Part shown: piece after piece, positions 1 to 7,725 of the stretch | How the letters are laid out: every line of letters begins with the position of its first letter | Position numbering within the stretch: the first letter of the stretch is position 1 | DNA from: an uncultured Roseburia sp. | Lineage (GTDB): Bacteria > Bacillota > Clostridia > Lachnospirales > Lachnospiraceae | Assembly (NCBI GenBank): GCA_934358955.1 | Contig: CAKRLC010000009.1 | Location: 1-41,835, forward strand | Reading direction: 5' to 3' | DNA length: 41,835 bases | Notes under the pieces: generated by a model | Database searches by the model: none | What the model saw: only the letters and a program-made list of their open reading frames with translations | Told to the model about the DNA's origin: nothing | Position numbers and translations under genes: made by a program

Positions 1-183
1 GAGCTTGCGGAAGATGGAATGACGATGGTAGTTGTTACACATGAGATGGGATTTGCAAGAGAAGTGGCAAACCGTGTCATGTTTATCAACGACGGTATCA
101 TCCAGGAAGAAAATACACCGCAGGAGATCTTTAACAATCCGCAGAGCCCGCGTCTGCAGGACTTCTTATCCAAGGTACTTTAA
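1..183 (+). CDS. Polar amino-acid ABC transporter ATP-binding protein, C-terminal end (partial)
   Basis: The last 60 codons of an ABC ATPase run from the window edge to TAA at 181-183. The segment contains the H-loop histidine ([18 protein letters not shown]), then the D-G-I-I strand and the '[22 protein letters not shown]' tail. This combination is typical of the GlnQ/ArtP/HisP family, which energises uptake of glutamine or other polar amino acids at the inner face of the membrane. Walker A, Walker B and the signature motif lie upstream of the window, so substrate specificity cannot be read. As the last gene before a terminator at 199-239, it is probably the distal gene of its operon. Family assignment is confident; the exact symbol is not. 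Confidence 0.9.
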
Positions 184-197
184 TTATCAGAAATTCA

Positions 198-240
198 GGA
201 CCGTTTCGTGAATGCAAAACACGAAGCGGTTCTTTTTTTA
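198..240 (+). terminator. Intrinsic terminator after the ABC ATPase
   Basis: GACCGTTTCGTG at 199-210 pairs with CACGAAGCGGTTC at 220-232 across a 9-nt loop, and a run of seven T follows. It lies 15 nt after the ABC ATPase stop codon and just before the first palindromic element. Confidence 0.9.
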
Positions 241-247
241 TTTCATA

Positions 248-483
248 GGATTCGGGTGACAAATGGTCTACATCGTAGTTTGAATGACAAATTACACAAA
301 AAAATATTGCAAGTTTCATTGTGCAAAACATTCCGATAAGCCTCTGAAAGCGTGAAGCGTGTTCAGCAGAGGCTTCCACGCTTCATGAGTCTTATCTCCA
401 TTGCACAAAGAGAAACTTTCCATATTTCTTTTGTGCAATTTGCCAATAAAGGTTACGGAGAAGACCATTTGACACCCGAATCC
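248..483 (+). repeat. Palindromic intergenic element, copy 1
   Basis: A 236-bp non-coding element with imperfect terminal inverted repeats (GGATTCGGGTG at 248-258, CACCCGAATCC at 473-483). The arms keep pairing inward: ACAAATGGTCT on the left with AGACCATTTG on the right, then TTGTGCAA at 319-326 with TTGCACAA at 401-408. The core holds GATAAG 335-340 / CTTATC 391-396, AGCCTCTG 339-346 / CAGAGGCT 367-374 and CGTGAAGCGTG 351-361 / CACGCTTCATG 377-387; the last two helices interleave. Copies 2 (4800-5032) and 3 (7371-7607, inverted) share the core almost exactly. No open frame is shared among them. It resembles a MITE or a structured intergenic repeat of unknown function. Confidence 0.85.
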
Positions 484-561
484 TAATATATAAAAACCGC
501 TCCGCTAGGGATACGCACTGCGGCGTACAAGGCAGGTGTCGCAATCTTTATAAGGAATTGT

Positions 562-590
562 TTGCAACAGTACCTGCTTTGTGGTAGTAT
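562..590 (+). promoter_or_regulatory. Promoter for prmA
   Basis: -35 TTGCAA at 562-567, a 17-bp spacer and -10 TAGTAT at 585-590, with an extended -10 TGG at 582-584. It lies downstream of the palindromic element and about 80 bp before the prmA start. Inferred from consensus only. Confidence 0.6.
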
Positions 591-670
591 ATTTAATGGT
601 TTCGTGTGCTTTGGTACGAAAAAGAAAGCTTGGCACACAAGAATTTTTGGGAAAATAAGGAGGAAATCCA

Positions 671-1654
671 ATGAAATGGAATAAATATACCATTGAGACG
701 ACAACTGCAGCAGAAGATTATTTAAGTGCTGCATTGATGGATCTTGGCATCGAGGGAGTGCAGATCGAAGACAATGTACCGCTGACAAAAGAGGATCAGG
801 CGGAGATGTTTATTGACTTTTTGCCGGAGCTTCCACCGGACGAGGGAATCAGCTACGTGAGCTTCTACCTGGAAGACGACGGACAGGACGATACAGAGCT
901 GTTAAAGCAGGTCCGCACAACCATCGAAGATATGCGTAAGGTTGTAGATATGGGAAGTGGTAAGATCACTTCTGACCAGACAGAGGATCTTGACTGGATC
1001 AACAACTGGAAACAGTTTTTCAGCTCTTTTTACATCGAAGATATTCTGATCAAACCTACCTGGGAGGAACTGAAAGAGGAAGATAAGGATAAATTTCTGA
1101 TCGAGATCGACCCGGGAGTTTCCTTTGGAACCGGAAAACATGAGACCACACAGCTTTGCATCCGCCAGCTGTTAAAATATATCCGTGGCAATGCGGACTA
1201 TTCACCTGCAAACAACGTACCGAAGGTACTTGATGTCGGATGCGGCAGCGGTATTTTATCCATCGTTGCATTAAAGCTGGGTGCTTCTGAAGTGGTAGGA
1301 ACAGACTTGGATCCGGACTGCATGACTTCAACACACGACAACATGCAGGTAAATCACCTGGATCCGTCCCTTGGAACATTCTATGTGGGCAATCTGATCG
1401 ATGATACCGAGCTTCAGGAAAAGGTCGGAACCGAAGAATATGACATTGTTGTTGCCAATATTTTAGCAGACGTGATCATTCCGATGGCACCGGTCATCCC
1501 GGCGAGACTGAAACAGGGCGGCTATTTCATTACATCCGGAATCATTGATTTTAAGGAAAATGAAGTAAAAGAAGCCATTGAAAAAGCAGGGCTCGAAGTG
1601 GTTGAGATCAACCATCAGGGCGAATGGGTGAACATCACAGCAAGAAAGAATTAG
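671..1654 (+). CDS. prmA: Ribosomal protein L11 methyltransferase
   Basis: A 327-residue SAM-dependent methyltransferase that methylates ribosomal protein L11 in the cytoplasm. The N-terminal domain (about 1-120) matches the PrmA substrate-recognition part. The class I Rossmann fold follows, with SAM motif VLDVGCGSGILSI near residues 188-200, an acidic ribose-binding strand ending VVGTDLDPD, and the catalytic-site motif VVANILADVI. The start is fixed by AAGGAGG at 657-663, 7 nt before ATG. Length matches the family. rsmE begins eight bases after the stop, so the two ribosome-modifying enzymes are co-transcribed, and the desulfurase gene follows directly. Confidence 0.96.
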   Translation: MKWNKYTIETTTAAEDYLSAALMDLGIEGVQIEDNVPLTKEDQAEMFIDFLPELPPDEGISYVSFYLEDDGQDDTELLKQVRTTIEDMRKVVDMGSGKITSDQTEDLDWINNWKQFFSSFYIEDILIKPTWEELKEEDKDKFLIEIDPGVSFGTGKHETTQLCIRQLLKYIRGNADYSPANNVPKVLDVGCGSGILSIVALKLGASEVVGTDLDPDCMTSTHDNMQVNHLDPSLGTFYVGNLIDDTELQEKVGTEEYDIVVANILADVIIPMAPVIPARLKQGGYFITSGIIDFKENEVKEAIEKAGLEVVEINHQGEWVNITARKN

Positions 1655-1662
1655 GAAAAAAT

Positions 1663-2409
1663 ATGTATCAGTTTTTTGTAGAAGAGTCAAATGTGTCAGC
1701 CACATCCGTTATGATCGAAGGCAGCGATGTCAATCATGCCAAAAATGTGCTCCGGATGAAGCCGGGGGAGAAGATCCGCGCATGTACCAGAGATGGAAAA
1801 GGATATTTCTGTGAGATCGCAGAATTAAATGACAGCTTTATCCGTGCAGAGATCCTTACGGCAGATGAAGAGGGAACAGAGCTTCCATGCCGCATCTATT
1901 TATTTCAGGGACTTCCGAAGAACGATAAGATGGAATGGATCATTCAGAAAGCAGTAGAGCTTGGCGCGTATCAGATCATTCCGGTTGCCATGAAAAACTG
2001 TGTGGTGAAGCTGGATGAGAAAAAAGCAAAATCAAAGGTAACAAGATGGCAGGCAATCGCTGAGAGTGCAGCCAAGCAGTCCAAAAGAAGTCTGATCCCG
2101 GAAATTTTGATGCCGGTAAGCTATAAAGAAGCGGTAAAAATGGCAGAATCGTTTGATGTGAACCTTGTTCCGTATGAGAACGAACATGGTATGGCAGGAA
2201 CGAAGAAAGCGGTAGAGCAGATCAGAGGCGGGGAGCAGATCGGTATTTTTATCGGACCGGAAGGCGGATTTGCTCCGGAAGAGATCGAACTGGTAAAGGA
2301 ACAGATGCATCTGATCTCACTTGGAAAGAGGATCCTTCGGACAGAGACTGCCGGTATGGCGACACTGGCAATTCTTGGCTATCATCTGGAAAGTATGGAG
2401 AATGACTAA
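1663..2409 (+). CDS. rsmE: 16S rRNA (uracil-1498-N3)-methyltransferase
   Basis: A 248-residue SPOUT-family enzyme that methylates U1498 of 16S rRNA. An N-terminal PUA-like domain (about 1-75; MYQFFVEES start) leads into the SPOUT domain with its SAM knot: LFQGLPKNDKMEWIIQKAVELG, FIGPEGGFAPEEIELV and LGKRILRTETA, the hallmark RsmE motifs. ATG 1663 is preferred over an in-frame upstream ATG at 1624 that lies inside prmA, because it has AGGA at 1653-1656 and gives the standard N-terminus. The gene is tightly packed between prmA and the desulfurase gene. Confidence 0.95.
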   Translation: MYQFFVEESNVSATSVMIEGSDVNHAKNVLRMKPGEKIRACTRDGKGYFCEIAELNDSFIRAEILTADEEGTELPCRIYLFQGLPKNDKMEWIIQKAVELGAYQIIPVAMKNCVVKLDEKKAKSKVTRWQAIAESAAKQSKRSLIPEILMPVSYKEAVKMAESFDVNLVPYENEHGMAGTKKAVEQIRGGEQIGIFIGPEGGFAPEEIELVKEQMHLISLGKRILRTETAGMATLAILGYHLESMEND

Positions 2410-2410
2410 A

Positions 2411-3580
2411 ATGGAAACAAATGTTACAGAAGTATATCTGGATAACTCTGCAACGACACGGTGCAGTGAGCGGGCAAAAGATCTTATGGTAAAGCTCCTT
2501 ATGGAGGATTACGGTAACCCGTCTTCTCTACACATGAAAGGTGTCGAGGCAGAAAACTATATCAAAGAAGCAAAAAAGAAAATCGCAAAAACCTTAAAGG
2601 CCGAAGAAAAAGAAATCTTATTTACATCCGGCGGAACAGAATCCAACAATATGGCGCTGATCGGAACAGCGCTCGCCAACAGACGCGCAGGAAATCATAT
2701 CATTACGACATCCATCGAGCATGCATCTGTTTCTGCAACTGTGGCATACTTAGAGGAGCTTGGATTTCGCGTGACCTATCTTGGTGTGGACGAGAACGGG
2801 ATCATCTCGCTTGATGAATTAAGGGACGCTGTCTGTGAAGATACGATCCTTGTATCTATGATGATGGTGAACAATGAGATCGGAGCAGTAGAGCCGATCG
2901 AGGAAGCAGTAAAAGTCATCCGTGAAAAGAATCCGAAGACGCTCATCCATGTCGATGCGATCCAGGCGTACGGAAAATACCGTATTTTCCCGAAAAAAAT
3001 GGGTATTGATCTGTTGTCAGTCAGCGGACATAAAATCCATGCTCCGAAAGGAACCGGATTTTTATATATCAAAGATAAAACAAAAATAAAACCTCTGATC
3101 TATGGAGGCGGTCAGCAGAAGGGCTTACGTTCCGGAACGGAAAATGTACCAGGCGCAGCAGCTCTGGGTGCAGCAGCAGAAGAGATCTACGAAGATTTTG
3201 ATGCAAAGATCGACCACATGTATGAACTGAAAACGCGGTTCATCGAAGGCGTACAGAACATTGAAGGTGTGACAGTCAACGGAAAGACCGGACGGGATTC
3301 TGCACCGCAGATCGTCAGCGTGAGCATTGACGGCGTACGAAGCGAAGTCATGCTCCATACTTTAGAGGATAAGAAGATTTATGTGTCAGCCGGAAGTGCC
3401 TGTTCTTCAAACAAGCCATCTGTCAGCCATACACTGACCTCTATCGGGCTGAAAAAGAATCTTTTGGATTCCACGATCCGTTTCAGCTTTTCTGTGCATA
3501 CAACAGAAGAAGAGATCGATTACGCCATCTCCGTAATGGCGGATGTCATCCCGATGCTGCGCCGTTACACACGCCACTAA
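2411..3580 (+). CDS. Cysteine desulfurase, NifS/IscS-like, paired with ThiI
   Basis: A 389-residue PLP-dependent class V aminotransferase-fold protein that takes sulfur from cysteine to form a protein persulfide. Visible motifs are the N-terminal YLDNSATT, the PLP region TSGGTESNNMAL, SIEHASV, HVDAIQAYGK, the lysine Schiff-base site SVSGHKIHAPKGTGFLY, RSGTENVPG, and the catalytic cysteine loop SAGSACSS. ATG 2411 is chosen because GGAG at 2397-2400 is 10 nt away; ATG 2402 would be too close. It begins one base after the rsmE stop and lies 22 bases before thiI. That linkage, known for NifZ-ThiI in Bacillus, suggests it feeds sulfur to tRNA 4-thiouridine synthesis more than to Fe-S assembly; this role is inferred. 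Confidence 0.93.
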   Translation: METNVTEVYLDNSATTRCSERAKDLMVKLLMEDYGNPSSLHMKGVEAENYIKEAKKKIAKTLKAEEKEILFTSGGTESNNMALIGTALANRRAGNHIITTSIEHASVSATVAYLEELGFRVTYLGVDENGIISLDELRDAVCEDTILVSMMMVNNEIGAVEPIEEAVKVIREKNPKTLIHVDAIQAYGKYRIFPKKMGIDLLSVSGHKIHAPKGTGFLYIKDKTKIKPLIYGGGQQKGLRSGTENVPGAAALGAAAEEIYEDFDAKIDHMYELKTRFIEGVQNIEGVTVNGKTGRDSAPQIVSVSIDGVRSEVMLHTLEDKKIYVSAGSACSSNKPSVSHTLTSIGLKKNLLDSTIRFSFSVHTTEEEIDYAISVMADVIPMLRRYTRH

Positions 3581-3602
3581 CCAGTATAATAAAGGAGAAA
3601 TT

Positions 3603-4784
3603 ATGTACAAATCATTTTTGATCAAATATGCGGAAATCGCAATCAAAGGAAAAAACAGATACCTGTTCGAAGATGCGCTTGTAAGCCAGATCAACCATGC
3701 ACTGAAAAAAGTGGATGGTGAATTCCTCGTGCGCAAAGAGCAGGGAAGAATTTATGTAGATACATTGAGTGATTACGACTTTGACGAGGTCGTGGAAGCG
3801 TTAAAATGCGTTTTTGGTATCGTTGGAATCTGCCCGGTTGTTTTATTAGAGGATGAAGGCTTTGACAAGCTTGCAGAAGAAGTGATCGCTTACATCGACC
3901 GAGTGTATCCGGACAAACATTTTACCTTCAAAGTAAATTCGCGTCGCGCAAGAAAAAATTATCCGATGGAATCCATGGAGATTAATGCGGCAATGGGCGA
4001 ACGCATCTTAGAGGCCTATCCGGAGACAAAAGTAGATGTGCATCATCCGGAAGTTGTTTTCAACATTGAGATCCGTGCAAAAATCAATGTTTATTCTACG
4101 ATCATCCCGGGCCCTGGCGGAATGCCGGTTGGAACAAACGGCAAAGCAATGTTATTGCTTTCCGGAGGAATCGACAGCCCGGTTGCAGGCTATATGATCG
4201 CAAAACGAGGCGTTACGATCGACGCAACTTATTTCCATGCACCACCATATACATCTGAGCGTGCAAAACAGAAAGTCGTTGACCTTGCGAAAATCGTGGC
4301 AAAATATTCCGGACCGATCAATCTTCATGTTGTAAACTTTACAGATATTCAGCTCTACATCTATGAGCAGTGCCCACATGAGGAACTGACGATCATCATG
4401 CGCCGCTATATGATGAAGCTGGCAGAGCATTTTGCAAAAGAAAATAAATGTCTTGGACTGATCACAGGAGAAAGTATCGGACAGGTGGCAAGCCAGACCA
4501 TGCAGTCTCTTGCAGCAACCAACGAAGTATGTACGATGCCGGTATACCGTCCGCTGATCGGATTTGATAAACAGGAGATCGTGACCATCTCAGAAAAAAT
4601 CGATGCTTATGAGACATCCATTCTTCCTTACGAAGACTGTTGTACTATCTTTGTGGCAAAACATCCGGTTACCAAACCAAGCTTAAATGTGATCCACAAT
4701 GATGAACGGAAATTAAGCGAGAAGATCGACCAGCTGATGCAGGAAGCAATTGACTCTGTTGAAGTGATTCACATCGAAGGATAA
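3603..4784 (+). CDS. thiI: tRNA 4-thiouridine synthase ThiI
   Basis: A 393-residue enzyme that adenylates U8 of tRNA and transfers sulfur to it (4-thiouridine); the family also serves thiazole synthesis. It has an N-terminal ferredoxin-like and THUMP region (about 1-165), then the PP-loop ATP pyrophosphatase motif LLLSGGIDSPVAGYMIAKRG, TGESIGQVASQTMQSL, and the cysteine-containing YEDCCTIFVAKHPVTKP. There is no C-terminal rhodanese domain, as in most Firmicutes ThiI, so the sulfur donor must be external; the desulfurase immediately upstream is the obvious partner. AAAGGAG at 3592-3598 sets the start at ATG 3603. The second palindromic element begins 15 nt after the stop. Confidence 0.95.
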   Translation: MYKSFLIKYAEIAIKGKNRYLFEDALVSQINHALKKVDGEFLVRKEQGRIYVDTLSDYDFDEVVEALKCVFGIVGICPVVLLEDEGFDKLAEEVIAYIDRVYPDKHFTFKVNSRRARKNYPMESMEINAAMGERILEAYPETKVDVHHPEVVFNIEIRAKINVYSTIIPGPGGMPVGTNGKAMLLLSGGIDSPVAGYMIAKRGVTIDATYFHAPPYTSERAKQKVVDLAKIVAKYSGPINLHVVNFTDIQLYIYEQCPHEELTIIMRRYMMKLAEHFAKENKCLGLITGESIGQVASQTMQSLAATNEVCTMPVYRPLIGFDKQEIVTISEKIDAYETSILPYEDCCTIFVAKHPVTKPSLNVIHNDERKLSEKIDQLMQEAIDSVEVIHIEG

Positions 4785-4799
4785 AAAACATTATGTAAG

Positions 4800-5032
4800 A
4801 TTCAGGTGGCGAAAGGTCTGTATATAAGTTTCTGTTAGCAGATTGCACAAGAGAAATATTCCAGGTTTCATTGTGCAAAACATTTCGATGAGCCTCTGAA
4901 AACGTGAATCGTGTTCAGCAAAGGCTTCCACGATTCATGAGTCTCATCTCCATTGCACAAAGAGAAAACTGGAATATTTTCTTTGTGCAATCTGTCAATA
5001 AAAATGATGGGCAGACCTTGCGCCACCTGAAT
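4800..5032 (+). repeat. Palindromic intergenic element, copy 2
   Basis: The second 233-bp copy, in the same orientation as copy 1, with ends ATTCAGGTGGCG / CGCCACCTGAAT. Compared with copy 1, several paired positions change together: core GATGAG 4887-4892 / CTCATC 4943-4948 (copy 1 GATAAG/CTTATC), CGTGAATCGTG 4903-4913 / CACGATTCATG 4929-4939 (copy 1 has G/C where this has T/A), and the terminal stem (A/T in place of G/C). One unpaired change is also seen: CAAAGGCT at 4919-4926 for CAGAGGCT. It lies between convergent thiI and the HPr-like gene. Confidence 0.85.
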
Positions 5033-5033
5033 T

Positions 5034-5079
5034 TATATTTTATGTAATAGAAGACTTCATTTCTATTACATAAAATATA
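5034..5079. repeat. Long AT-rich perfect inverted repeat
   Basis: A 17-bp perfect stem (TATATTTTATGTAATAG at 5034-5050, complement at 5063-5079) with a 12-nt loop, wedged between palindromic element 2 and the terminator of the HPr-like gene. It may act as a secondary terminator between the convergent genes. Confidence 0.6.
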
Positions 5080-5105
5080 AAAAAAGAACCGCCATGCGGC
5101 GGTTC
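5080..5105 (-). terminator. Terminator of the HPr-like gene
   Basis: GAACCGCC 5086-5093 pairs with GGCGGTTC 5098-5105 over a 4-nt loop; on the minus strand a T-run follows (plus-strand A-run ending at 5085). It ends the minus-strand gene and may stop thiI transcripts too. Confidence 0.85.
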
Positions 5106-5119
5106 TTAAAAAATTATTT

Positions 5120-5350
5120 TTATACTAAGTATGGTTTTAATACTTCAAGGATTTCATCCAGGTTGCTCTCTGCATGGATTGCAAGATCGATCGGTTTGGA
5201 TAAATCTAAGCTGAAGATACCCATGATAGATTTTGCATCGATGACATATCTGCCAGAGATGAGATCAAAATCAAATTCAAACTGAGTAATTGCATTAACA
5301 AAAGATTTTACTTTGTCAATAGAGTTTAAAGAAATCTGTACTGTTTTCAT
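5120..5350 (-). CDS. HPr-like protein lacking the phosphorylatable histidine
   Basis: A 76-residue HPr-fold protein. The second half matches HPr closely, including YVIDAKSIMGIFSLDL, the region around regulatory Ser46, and a C-terminal helix DEILEVLKPYL. The segment that should carry the GxHARPA active-site loop reads SLNSIDKVKSFVNAI: there is no His15 and no Arg17. It therefore cannot pass phosphate in the PTS and is more likely a regulatory relative in the manner of Crh, with Ser46 possibly the target of HPr kinase (inference). AAGGAGG on the minus strand at about 5358-5364 sets the start. It is monocistronic, with its own promoter and terminator, and is divergent from mtaB. Confidence 0.85.
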   Translation of the reverse strand: MKTVQISLNSIDKVKSFVNAITQFEFDFDLISGRYVIDAKSIMGIFSLDLSKPIDLAIHAESNLDEILEVLKPYLV

Positions 5351-5389
5351 ATTGGAAAACCTCCTTATTAGCTATCAAAGTTAATTATA

Positions 5390-5417
5390 TACTAGTGTTT
5401 TTTTTAGGAAAAGTCAA
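5390..5417 (-). promoter_or_regulatory. Promoter of the HPr-like gene
   Basis: Read on the minus strand, -35 TTGACT (plus 5412-5417), a 16-bp spacer and -10 TAGTAT (plus 5390-5395), followed directly by a second -10-like TATAAT (plus 5385-5390). Confidence 0.55.
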
Positions 5418-5507
5418 GTGACGATTGTGCTTTCTGAAAGTTTCGTCACACAGACGAAAAAAACAGGAAAATAACAGTTAAAGTGACGAAAATAACAGGA
5501 GAAATAA

Positions 5508-6833
5508 ATGGAAAAAAGGAAAAAAGCTGCACTTCATAACTTGGGCTGCAAGGTAAATGCCTATGAGACCGAAGCAATGCAGCAGATTTTAGAAAAAGCG
5601 GGATATGAGATCGTCCCATTTCAGGAATATGCGGATGTCTATGTGGTGAATACGTGTTCCGTTACAAATATGGCAGACCGTAAATCAAGACAGATGCTCC
5701 ATCGTGCGAAGAAGACGAACCCGGAGGCGATCGTTGTCGGTGCAGGCTGCTATGTGCAGACGAAGGAAGCAGAAGCACTGCTAGACGATACGGTAGATAT
5801 CATCATCGGAAATAACCGGAAAAATGAACTGGTCGATATGATCGAGGCTTATGAAGCGGATCATGGAAAAAAGGAAAATGTTGCGGATATCAACCACGAA
5901 AAACAGGAATACGAAGAAATGTATCTGGATAAGACGGCAGAACACACAAGAGCTTTTATCAAGGTGCAGGATGGCTGTAACCAGTTTTGTACCTACTGTA
6001 TTATCCCATTTGCAAGAGGCAGGGTGAGAAGCAGAAAGGCAGAGGATGTGATCGAAGAAGTGAAACGTCTTGCCGGACACGGATTTAAGGAAGTGGTGCT
6101 GACCGGCATCCACTTAAGCTCCTACGGCATTGACACCGGAGAGAATCTGCTTCAACTGATCCGTCTTGTGCATGAAGTGGAAGGAATCGAACGGATCCGC
6201 CTTGGAAGCTTAGAGCCGCGGATCGTGACAGAGGAGTTTGCACAGGCTCTTTCTGAAATGGAAAAAATCTGCCCACACTTCCATCTGTCCTTACAGAGCG
6301 GCTGCGATGCAACCTTACAGCGCATGAACCGCAGATATACAACAGAAGAATATGAAGAGGGCTGTAAGATCCTGCGGAAATACTTTACACACCCAGCGAT
6401 CACGACCGATGTGATCGTCGGATTCCCAGGTGAGACCGAGGAAGAATTTGAAACGACAAAAGCGTACCTTGAGAAAATCCATTTTTATGAGATGCACATT
6501 TTTCAGTATTCAAAACGAGAGGGTACGAAGGCTGCAGTGATGGAACATCAGGTGCCGGAACCGGTAAAAAAAGTACGCAGCAACCACTTGCTCGATTTAG
6601 AAAAAGAAATGTCAGAGCAGTTCCGCAAATACTATATTGGAAAACAGGTTACTGTATTAATGGAAGAACCGTTTGAATTTGAGGGAGAAACCTATTTTAC
6701 CGGCTATACAAAAGAGTATGTAAAGGTCGCAGTCAGGACAGCGGAAGACCTCTCCAACCAGTTTGTGGAAGGAAAGATCACAGATTACCGCTCTTTTGGC
6801 AGCGAAGCACTTGCGGTTATGGAACCAAAATGA
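5508..6833 (+). CDS. mtaB: tRNA N6-threonylcarbamoyladenosine(37) methylthiotransferase
   Basis: A 441-residue radical-SAM methylthiotransferase that converts t6A37 to ms2t6A37 in tRNAs reading ANN codons. The UPF0004 N-terminal domain carries cluster cysteines C14 (NLGCKVNAYETEA), C50 (NTCSVTN) and C81 (GAGCYVQ). The radical-SAM cluster is C157-x3-C161-x2-C164 (DGCNQFCTYCIIPFARGR). A C-terminal TRAM-like domain follows. The 'LGCKVNxYETEA' signature distinguishes MtaB from MiaB and RimO. ACAGGAG precedes ATG 5508. A palindrome TTTCGTC-N5-GACGAAA lies 49 bp upstream in the divergent region. No clear terminator follows before the next promoter at 6842. Confidence 0.95.
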   Translation: MEKRKKAALHNLGCKVNAYETEAMQQILEKAGYEIVPFQEYADVYVVNTCSVTNMADRKSRQMLHRAKKTNPEAIVVGAGCYVQTKEAEALLDDTVDIIIGNNRKNELVDMIEAYEADHGKKENVADINHEKQEYEEMYLDKTAEHTRAFIKVQDGCNQFCTYCIIPFARGRVRSRKAEDVIEEVKRLAGHGFKEVVLTGIHLSSYGIDTGENLLQLIRLVHEVEGIERIRLGSLEPRIVTEEFAQALSEMEKICPHFHLSLQSGCDATLQRMNRRYTTEEYEEGCKILRKYFTHPAITTDVIVGFPGETEEEFETTKAYLEKIHFYEMHIFQYSKREGTKAAVMEHQVPEPVKKVRSNHLLDLEKEMSEQFRKYYIGKQVTVLMEEPFEFEGETYFTGYTKEYVKVAVRTAEDLSNQFVEGKITDYRSFGSEALAVMEPK

Positions 6834-6841
6834 TCTTATGG

Positions 6842-6870
6842 TTGAATTTTAAGGAAAACTATATTAGAAT
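6842..6870 (+). promoter_or_regulatory. Promoter of ireB
   Basis: -35 TTGAAT at 6842-6847, a 17-bp spacer and -10 TAGAAT at 6865-6870. It lies 112 bp upstream of the ireB start, leaving a long leader with no recognisable riboswitch. Confidence 0.65.
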
Positions 6871-6981
6871 AAAGTGAAAGAATTCTGTAATTATCTGGAA
6901 TCAGTTCAGAGCAGGAACGGTTCTGATAACAGAAAATGATTCGACAGATAAAGCAAAGCAGAGTATAAGGGCGTGACAAAT

Positions 6982-7245
6982 ATGCAGAACATAAATCATA
7001 CACAGTACTTCAGAGTGGAAAAAGAACCGGAATTGCAGGTAAAAGACGTTTTATCGATCGTTTATCATGCACTCAGTGAGAAAGGATATAATCCACTGAA
7101 TCAGATTGTTGGATATATTATGTCAGGTGATCCTACCTATATCACCAGCCATAATAATGCAAGAAGTCTGATCATGAAGGTTGAACGTGACGAGCTGGTA
7201 GAAGAAGTCTTACGGGCTTATATCAGAAACAATAACTGGAACTAA
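6982..7245 (+). CDS. ireB: IreB-family regulatory phosphoprotein (UPF0297)
   Basis: An 87-residue cytoplasmic protein of the YrzL/IreB family. The whole length matches: [46 protein letters not shown], and the terminal basic helix. In Enterococcus, IreB is a substrate of the PASTA kinase IreK and affects cell-wall stress resistance and cephalosporin tolerance (established for that species). ATG 6982 is preferred over GTG 6973 because AAGGG at 6967-6971 is about 10 nt from 6982 and only 1 nt from 6973. In Firmicutes ireB is normally followed by ruvX (yqgF) and a DUF1292 gene; here ruvX is absent and palindromic element 3 sits in its place. Confidence 0.93.
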
Positions 7246-7370
7246 GTATCGGTTACATGTCATTCTTTCCAGTATAATTTTTTAAAAATGAATTATTATA
7301 TGGTTAAAAATCAGGGCTCAGGAAGAGCTTAGGCTGCCGTAGTAGACGTGGAGCCTTTATTTGCTATGCA

Positions 7371-7607
7371 GGATTCCGGTGTAAAAATGACTGACGCATA
7401 ACTTTTATCTATAGATTGCACGACAGAAATATTTCAAATTTCTCTTTGTGCAATGGAGATAAGACTCATGAAGCGTGGAAGCCTCTGCTGAACACGCTTC
7501 ACGTTTTCAGAGGCTTATCGAAATGTTTTGCACAATGAAAGTTGAAATATTTCTGTCGTGCAATCTGCAAGATACATGTGGCAACAGTCATTTTTACCCC
7601 GGAATCC
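7371..7607 (-). repeat. Palindromic intergenic element, copy 3 (inverted)
   Basis: A 237-bp copy in the opposite orientation to copies 1 and 2. The ends are GGATTCCGGTGTAAAAATGA and its near complement (7588-7607), again differing in sequence from the other copies while staying self-complementary. The reversed core at about 7470-7530 matches copy 1 at the interleaved helices. It occupies most of the 480-bp gap between ireB and the DUF1292 gene. The rest of the gap (7246-7370, 7608-7725) shows no gene; AGGCT...AGCCT at 7331-7356 is a weak possible hairpin. Confidence 0.85.
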
Positions 7608-7725
7608 GATGCTGGACAATAGAATGGCAGGCATGAAAGAATAGTCACCCGAAAAGATATTTATACCCCAAACGGGTATGGATGCTGAATATAGAAAAAG
7701 AAAAGAAAGGAGATCCCAAAAAGAA

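Follow-up and report, generated by a model that had tools for sequence, protein, structure and literature searches.

The three palindromic repeats that lie between genes in the window, the whole 41,835-nucleotide stretch of Roseburia DNA analyzed here, probably arose long ago as insertions of a mobile DNA hairpin element that is MITE-like and non-autonomous. The family they belong to is new and MITE-like; its folded core is conserved, and a sister element carries an orphan Rfam motif. In relatives, this family is present in many copies per genome, is almost completely palindromic, and has a core with an asymmetric internal loop.

The original prediction was confirmed: the window has three palindromes, each about 235 bp long and the third inverted, all situated between the long ORFs, and the quoted stems are present in the sequence (Table 1). 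BLASTN within the window aligned the copies with one another at E values of 6.7e-55 or lower, and each copy with its own reverse complement at E values of 1.7e-24 to 2.4e-35. Pieces of 260-270 nt holding each copy had a predicted folding energy of -103 to -120 kcal/mol. Copy 1 lies in sense behind a gene and that gene's terminator-like hairpin, copy 2 is sense to the preceding thiI, and copy 3 is antisense to its preceding gene. An intact target duplication is absent at all three copies; at copy 3 the flanks match at 6/8 bases. Directly next to copy 2 lies an inverted repeat with perfectly matched 21-bp arms and an 8-bp loop (window 5032-5081).

Table 1. Features of the three repeat copies; positions are those of the window, and core statistics refer to the 35 aligned cores.
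Feature	Position	Orientation	Remark
Copy 1, GATTC...GAATC	249-482	+ (core)	About 66 bp past the stop codon at 181-183
Copy 2, GATTC...GAATT	4799-5033	+ (core)	Just past the thiI stop codon
Copy 3, GATTC...GAATC	7372-7606	- (core)	Flanks CTATGCAG/CGATGCTG identical at 6/8 bases
Copy 1 left terminal inverted repeat, GATTCGGGTGACAAATG	249-265	+	Consensus GATTCGGGTGTCAAAAG taken from relatives
Copy 1 right terminal inverted repeat	466-482	-	
Copy 1 conserved core	307-424	+	Covariance model match
Copy 2 conserved core	4859-4976	+	Covariance model match
Copy 3 conserved core	7430-7547	-	Covariance model match
Copy 1 internal loop, 5' side, AACATTCC	327-334	+	Last position C in 35/35 cores, first C in 34/35
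Copy 1 internal loop, 3' side, TCCA	397-400	+	T in 35/35 cores, third base C in 34/35
Copy 1 stem GATAAG/CTTATC	335-340 with 391-396	+	6/6 pairs changed on both sides, 98.6% paired
Copy 1 tip stem CGTGAAGCGTG/CACGCTTCATG	351-361 with 377-387	+	Both-side changes in 6/8 counted pairs; 97.8% paired

Covariance-model searches of related Lachnospiraceae found further copies. A DNA search identified three distant copies in the genome of R. inulinivorans DSM 16841 (G001; locus L001), which were combined with the window copies into a covariance model, R1. R1 matched 6 of 62 Roseburia-genus genomes: at least 46 matches in G011, at least 27 in G001, four in G018, three in G010 (one being the other strand of another), two in G033, and a single weak match in G004 (E 0.05). 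At most 59 candidates were scored per genome, so these copy numbers are lower bounds. A second model, R2, built from 35 cores, matched 22 of 397 Lachnospiraceae genomes; here at most nine candidates were scored per genome, and copy numbers are again lower bounds. Many matches in G001 and G011 lie close to where a contig stops, about 200 bases away or less, which suggests that the elements break draft assemblies.

Protein similarity places the window in Roseburia: its ThiI shares 97% identity with the ThiI of R. inulinivorans DSM 16841 (L001). The aligned DNA is only about 76-87% identical, so the window is probably from another species. The site of copy 2 measures about 95 bp in R. inulinivorans versus about 334 bp in the window, and BLASTN (E<=0.01) detected no copy in 80 syntenic loci, which are pieces of 4-21 kb rather than genomes. 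The site of copy 3 (window 7246-7677) corresponds to the place of ruvX in R. inulinivorans (L001 9473-9907); ruvX is present in 18 of 20 syntenic loci, and a tblastn search of the window failed to detect it (best E 0.70). Phages and plasmids gave no BLASTN match to copy 1 at E<=1e-5, and viral contigs none to either the core pattern or the end pattern. A 21-letter core pattern had 0 matches in GTDB contigs, though diverged copies are present there. Among the papers listed in literature searches, no title or abstract opening describes such repeats in Roseburia or Lachnospiraceae.

The ends of the elements point to mobility. Allowing up to two mismatches, GATTCGGGTGTCAAAAG occurred on the forward/reverse strands 25/26 times in G011, 30/28 in G010, 17/18 in G033, 1/1 in G018, 1/2 in G004 and 2/0 in G001. 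A control with the string reversed had 0 occurrences in 6/6 genomes. Direct flanking repeats of at least 6 bp, counted from flanks trimmed by up to two bases, were found in 27 of 65 repeat pairs of relatives (12 of 6, 14 of 7 and one of 8 bp), against a mean of 2.0 and a maximum of 7 in 500 shuffles. They are AT-rich, mostly 6-7 bp, and present in part of the copies; in 20 of the 65 pairs no direct repeat reaches 3 bp, which counts against the mobile-element reading. Short deletion derivatives of 36, 47, 57, 73 and 107 bp retain the ends. The GATTC-ended elements are thus like MITEs in being short and non-coding with terminal inverted repeats and, in relatives, in having target-site duplications.

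For insertions of this kind, a transposase acting in trans would recognize the element ends and would duplicate a target site of about 7 bp. The palindrome may fold as DNA, either as a cruciform or as a single-strand hairpin at the replication fork, and the bulged core may be read as a DNA shape by the mobilizing machinery or a host factor. Such reading, perhaps helped by template switching, would keep the arms matched as their sequence changes.

A search for an IS transposase with the same ends covered one family, DDE_Tnp_1, and yielded none: 12 matches occurred in two of five genomes, and none of these loci carried the tested end strings. The DDE_Tnp_1 elements were rejected as partners, as their best inverted repeats differ from the repeat ends. 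An IS in G010 with ends GGGGCTGTGAAAAAA resembles the repeat merely loosely, and the one interval examined between two G010 repeats (9.1 kb) holds host-like ORFs. IS200/IS605-type single-strand elements make no target duplication; this identity was rejected for the GATTC-ended elements, in which direct repeats are present.

Compensations are few when only the three window copies are compared. The predicted covariation of the arms was borne out on an alignment (A4) of 35 cores picked for diversity from 80 covariance-model matches, with tipless copies left out, where it exceeded both shuffled and slid controls. In A4, 85.3% of cells were paired, versus 40-44% when partners were slid by 1-3 columns. 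Both-side changes affected 22 of 32 pairs (shuffled mean 14.4; as high in 0 of 500 shuffles) and 132 cells (shuffled mean 36.6), cells from related copies not being independent. Further pair types were not above shuffles (39 vs 40.6). All six pairs of the GATRAG/CTYATC stem changed on both sides (98.6% paired), as did six of the eight counted pairs of the tip stem (97.8% paired); the outermost core stem was weak (58.6% paired). Between the stems lies an asymmetric internal loop that is nearly invariant across the 35 cores: alignment positions 28 (C) and 91 (T) are constant in 35/35, and C at position 23, T at position 26 and C at position 93 are each present in 34/35. The tip is missing from 11 of the 25 aligned R. 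inulinivorans copies, which retain the loop and stem. A tip pseudoknot, i.e. a second interleaved helix, was rejected: on six sequences 86.1% of cells paired without compensation, and on 35 sequences 68.9% paired, with two of six pairs changed on both sides. Arm identity between distant elements was likewise set aside as uninformative, any short gapped arm alignments scoring about 60-85%.

The original prediction took compensation to mean that the fold is maintained, as RNA or as extruded DNA. The covariation is strong, but compensation alone is no proof of a maintained fold, because template switching during replication, a mechanism described in PMC8794818, can also keep arms matched. Mutation alone, with one palindrome arm copied onto the other without selection, would account for the strand symmetry described below, and some tips are now near-perfect hairpins (e.g. 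L150). We nevertheless regard this explanation as improbable: correction should erase mismatches and would not preserve the mismatched internal loop, which is retained across species, and the arms still carry roughly 15-20% mismatches.

We reasoned that an RNA folding from one strand should tolerate G.U pairs and not A.C pairs. Where pairs were predicted on both strands, and are thus strand-neutral, G.U/A.C counts were 16/18, 19/17, 23/24 and 4/8, compared with 9/1 in an RNA control comprising the P1 stem alone of eight SAM riboswitches (the P2 stems, as printed, hold a U.G). A ratio of about 1:1 speaks against a one-strand RNA, and of the two forms originally proposed for the fold, we favor DNA-like maintenance on both strands. 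Stems S2 and P4 of A4 (1/3) and the AYGGAY hairpins (2/3, with L210 left out and L209 read at the wrong place) also gave no excess of G.U over A.C. Symmetric arm alignments gave 6/5 for the window, 119/95 for G001, 111/88 for G011 and 31/26 for others. Taken singly, none of the groups deviates, but summed over the window-type groups the count of 267/214 (nominal p 0.018) leans to G.U, which counts against the DNA-hairpin reading. The TwoAYGGAY arms described below (23 of 30 family loci used) gave 13/19 and 37/52, summing to 50/71 (p 0.07), a leaning in the opposite direction. The outer stems of A4 gave 15/2 (S1a) and 20/9 (S1b), largely through two columns fixed in G011, and in predicted structures G.U pairs on the core strand exceeded those on the opposite strand (89/69, 94/72, 121/44 and 14/9). 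Given these leanings in some subsets, RNA may make a weak contribution to the pairing.

The main rival is a structured RNA, a 3'-UTR element or sRNA that spread by its usefulness, its hairpin capping or processing messages and its bulged core binding a protein. The G.U leanings, the conservation of the internal loop and tip, and the many copies situated just behind genes agree with such an RNA, above all in R. inulinivorans, where a sense ORF ends near the element 5' end at 23 of 25 copies, and 15 copies have a sense ORF only versus one with an antisense ORF only (p 0.0005). Elsewhere the orientation bias was not significant, with counts of 17/9 for a further 52 copies, 7/12 for TwoAYGGAY (35 of 37 loci used) and 7/4 in 19 window-type loci. 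These context counts include some spurious frames (L148, L159) and overlook the gene preceding copy 1, truncated at the window start; a count of ORF overlaps (20/69) was discarded as not meaningful, many ORFs being artifacts of a simple finder. With strand-neutral pairs so evenly divided and the orientation bias significant only in R. inulinivorans, we consider the RNA explanation unlikely.

The R. inulinivorans copies carry different, TAACCGGAGTTTAAC-like ends on the same core, a pattern with 56 matches versus 5 in the reversed control. Several of these copies (e.g. L105, L107, L158) share sequence beyond the palindrome 3' end (GGGATGAGTGCCTATA and more). A symmetric element predicts neither these other ends nor the orientation bias, both of which stand against our preferred reading. 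They could reflect two mobilization systems acting on one core, with an HUH-like or recombinase-like, orientation-specific insertion at gene 3' ends in R. inulinivorans and a DDE-like system for the GATTC ends. In keeping with this, 15 of the 25 copies begin with a TAA(A)CCGGAG-like string, in 12 of 25 this TAA also terminates the sense ORF, and the preceding genes look unrelated by eye. The TAA may, however, belong to the element's own end and merely supply a stop codon, and the GATTC-ended elements have direct repeats; we judge a two-system origin very unlikely.

Our reading of the repeats as MITE-like DNA hairpins also bears on TwoAYGGAY (RF01731). The terminal repeats recur on elements of about 310 bp in G010, G018 and G033 that also share a long palindromic arm and have RF01731 at the center; it scored 100-123 bits in seven of 11 loci searched, and the remaining four, window-type loci were without it. 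As the same ends bracket it, TwoAYGGAY appears to form the central part of a mobile element. The palindrome extends past the Rfam boundary: 28 of 30 family loci beat the best of 20 shuffles (L210 and L218 fail; L223 and L228 barely pass). RF01731 was found in 25 of 62 genus genomes, in 64 of 397 family genomes (62 above the cut-off) and in 0 of 14 control genomes; with at most 37 (genus) or six (family) candidates scored per genome, copy numbers are lower bounds. In G006, G007, G008, G024 and G040, at least 10 pairs of TwoAYGGAY copies are spaced no more than about 300-750 bp apart, a minus copy preceding a plus copy in every case, as if they belonged to composite elements. In G442 (L306 1200-1670), a TwoAYGGAY copy stands beside a window-type core, with 72 bp between the matches.

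TwoAYGGAY has been treated as a probable RNA (PMC2864571), a proposed CsrA-binding sRNA (PMC4333381), a family whose Rfam model was improved (PMC11701678) and an example of stability (PMC11661157); the TwoAYGGAY passages of these four papers make no mention of mobility. The window core differs in that its tip is a single hairpin, whereas TwoAYGGAY has two AYGGAY hairpins. RF01731 matched neither the window at gathering score nor its positions 1-7700 at E<=5, and seven weak Rfam matches in 1-7700 (E<=5, below gathering score) were taken as chance. The original view that no named family fits holds insofar as the window has 0 Rfam matches at gathering score and the repeats have no Rfam family of their own; it needs amending in that their ends are common to TwoAYGGAY-carrying elements, and that terminal inverted repeats with flanking direct repeats place them among MITE-like elements. 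A bolder and, on present evidence, doubtful proposal is that TwoAYGGAY and the window core are folded DNA addresses rather than RNAs: interchangeable hairpin heads, extruded or single-stranded, that would be read by Lachnospiraceae mobilizing machinery. Their ends would turn over from lineage to lineage, and one would now be an oriented inserter at gene 3' ends.

Bacterial MITEs such as Correia/NEMIS, ERIC, YPAL and RUP, as described in PMC2229807, are likewise short, non-coding, multicopy, inverted-repeat sequences that form RNA or DNA hairpins. Unlike them, the window family is nearly all palindromic, conserves a folded core, has ends that vary by lineage, and had no partner IS among the DDE_Tnp_1 elements searched in five genomes. 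The bcr1-bcr18 repeats of Bacillus cereus, according to PMC6542083, are comparable as non-coding sequences of 100-400 bp that are mobile by an unsettled route, bcr1 reaching tens of copies per genome; they are linked to TTTAT motifs in one species group, whereas the window-type family has variable AT-rich direct repeats and occurs in Lachnospiraceae.

These results give the orphan Rfam RNA family TwoAYGGAY a concrete context as the center of a mobile element, and the comparison of G.U with A.C offers a simple test, by strand symmetry, for telling RNA from DNA when a repeat covaries. For the common gut bacteria that carry them, the elements are an abundant source of intergenic hairpins, which may end or stabilize messages and may break assemblies.
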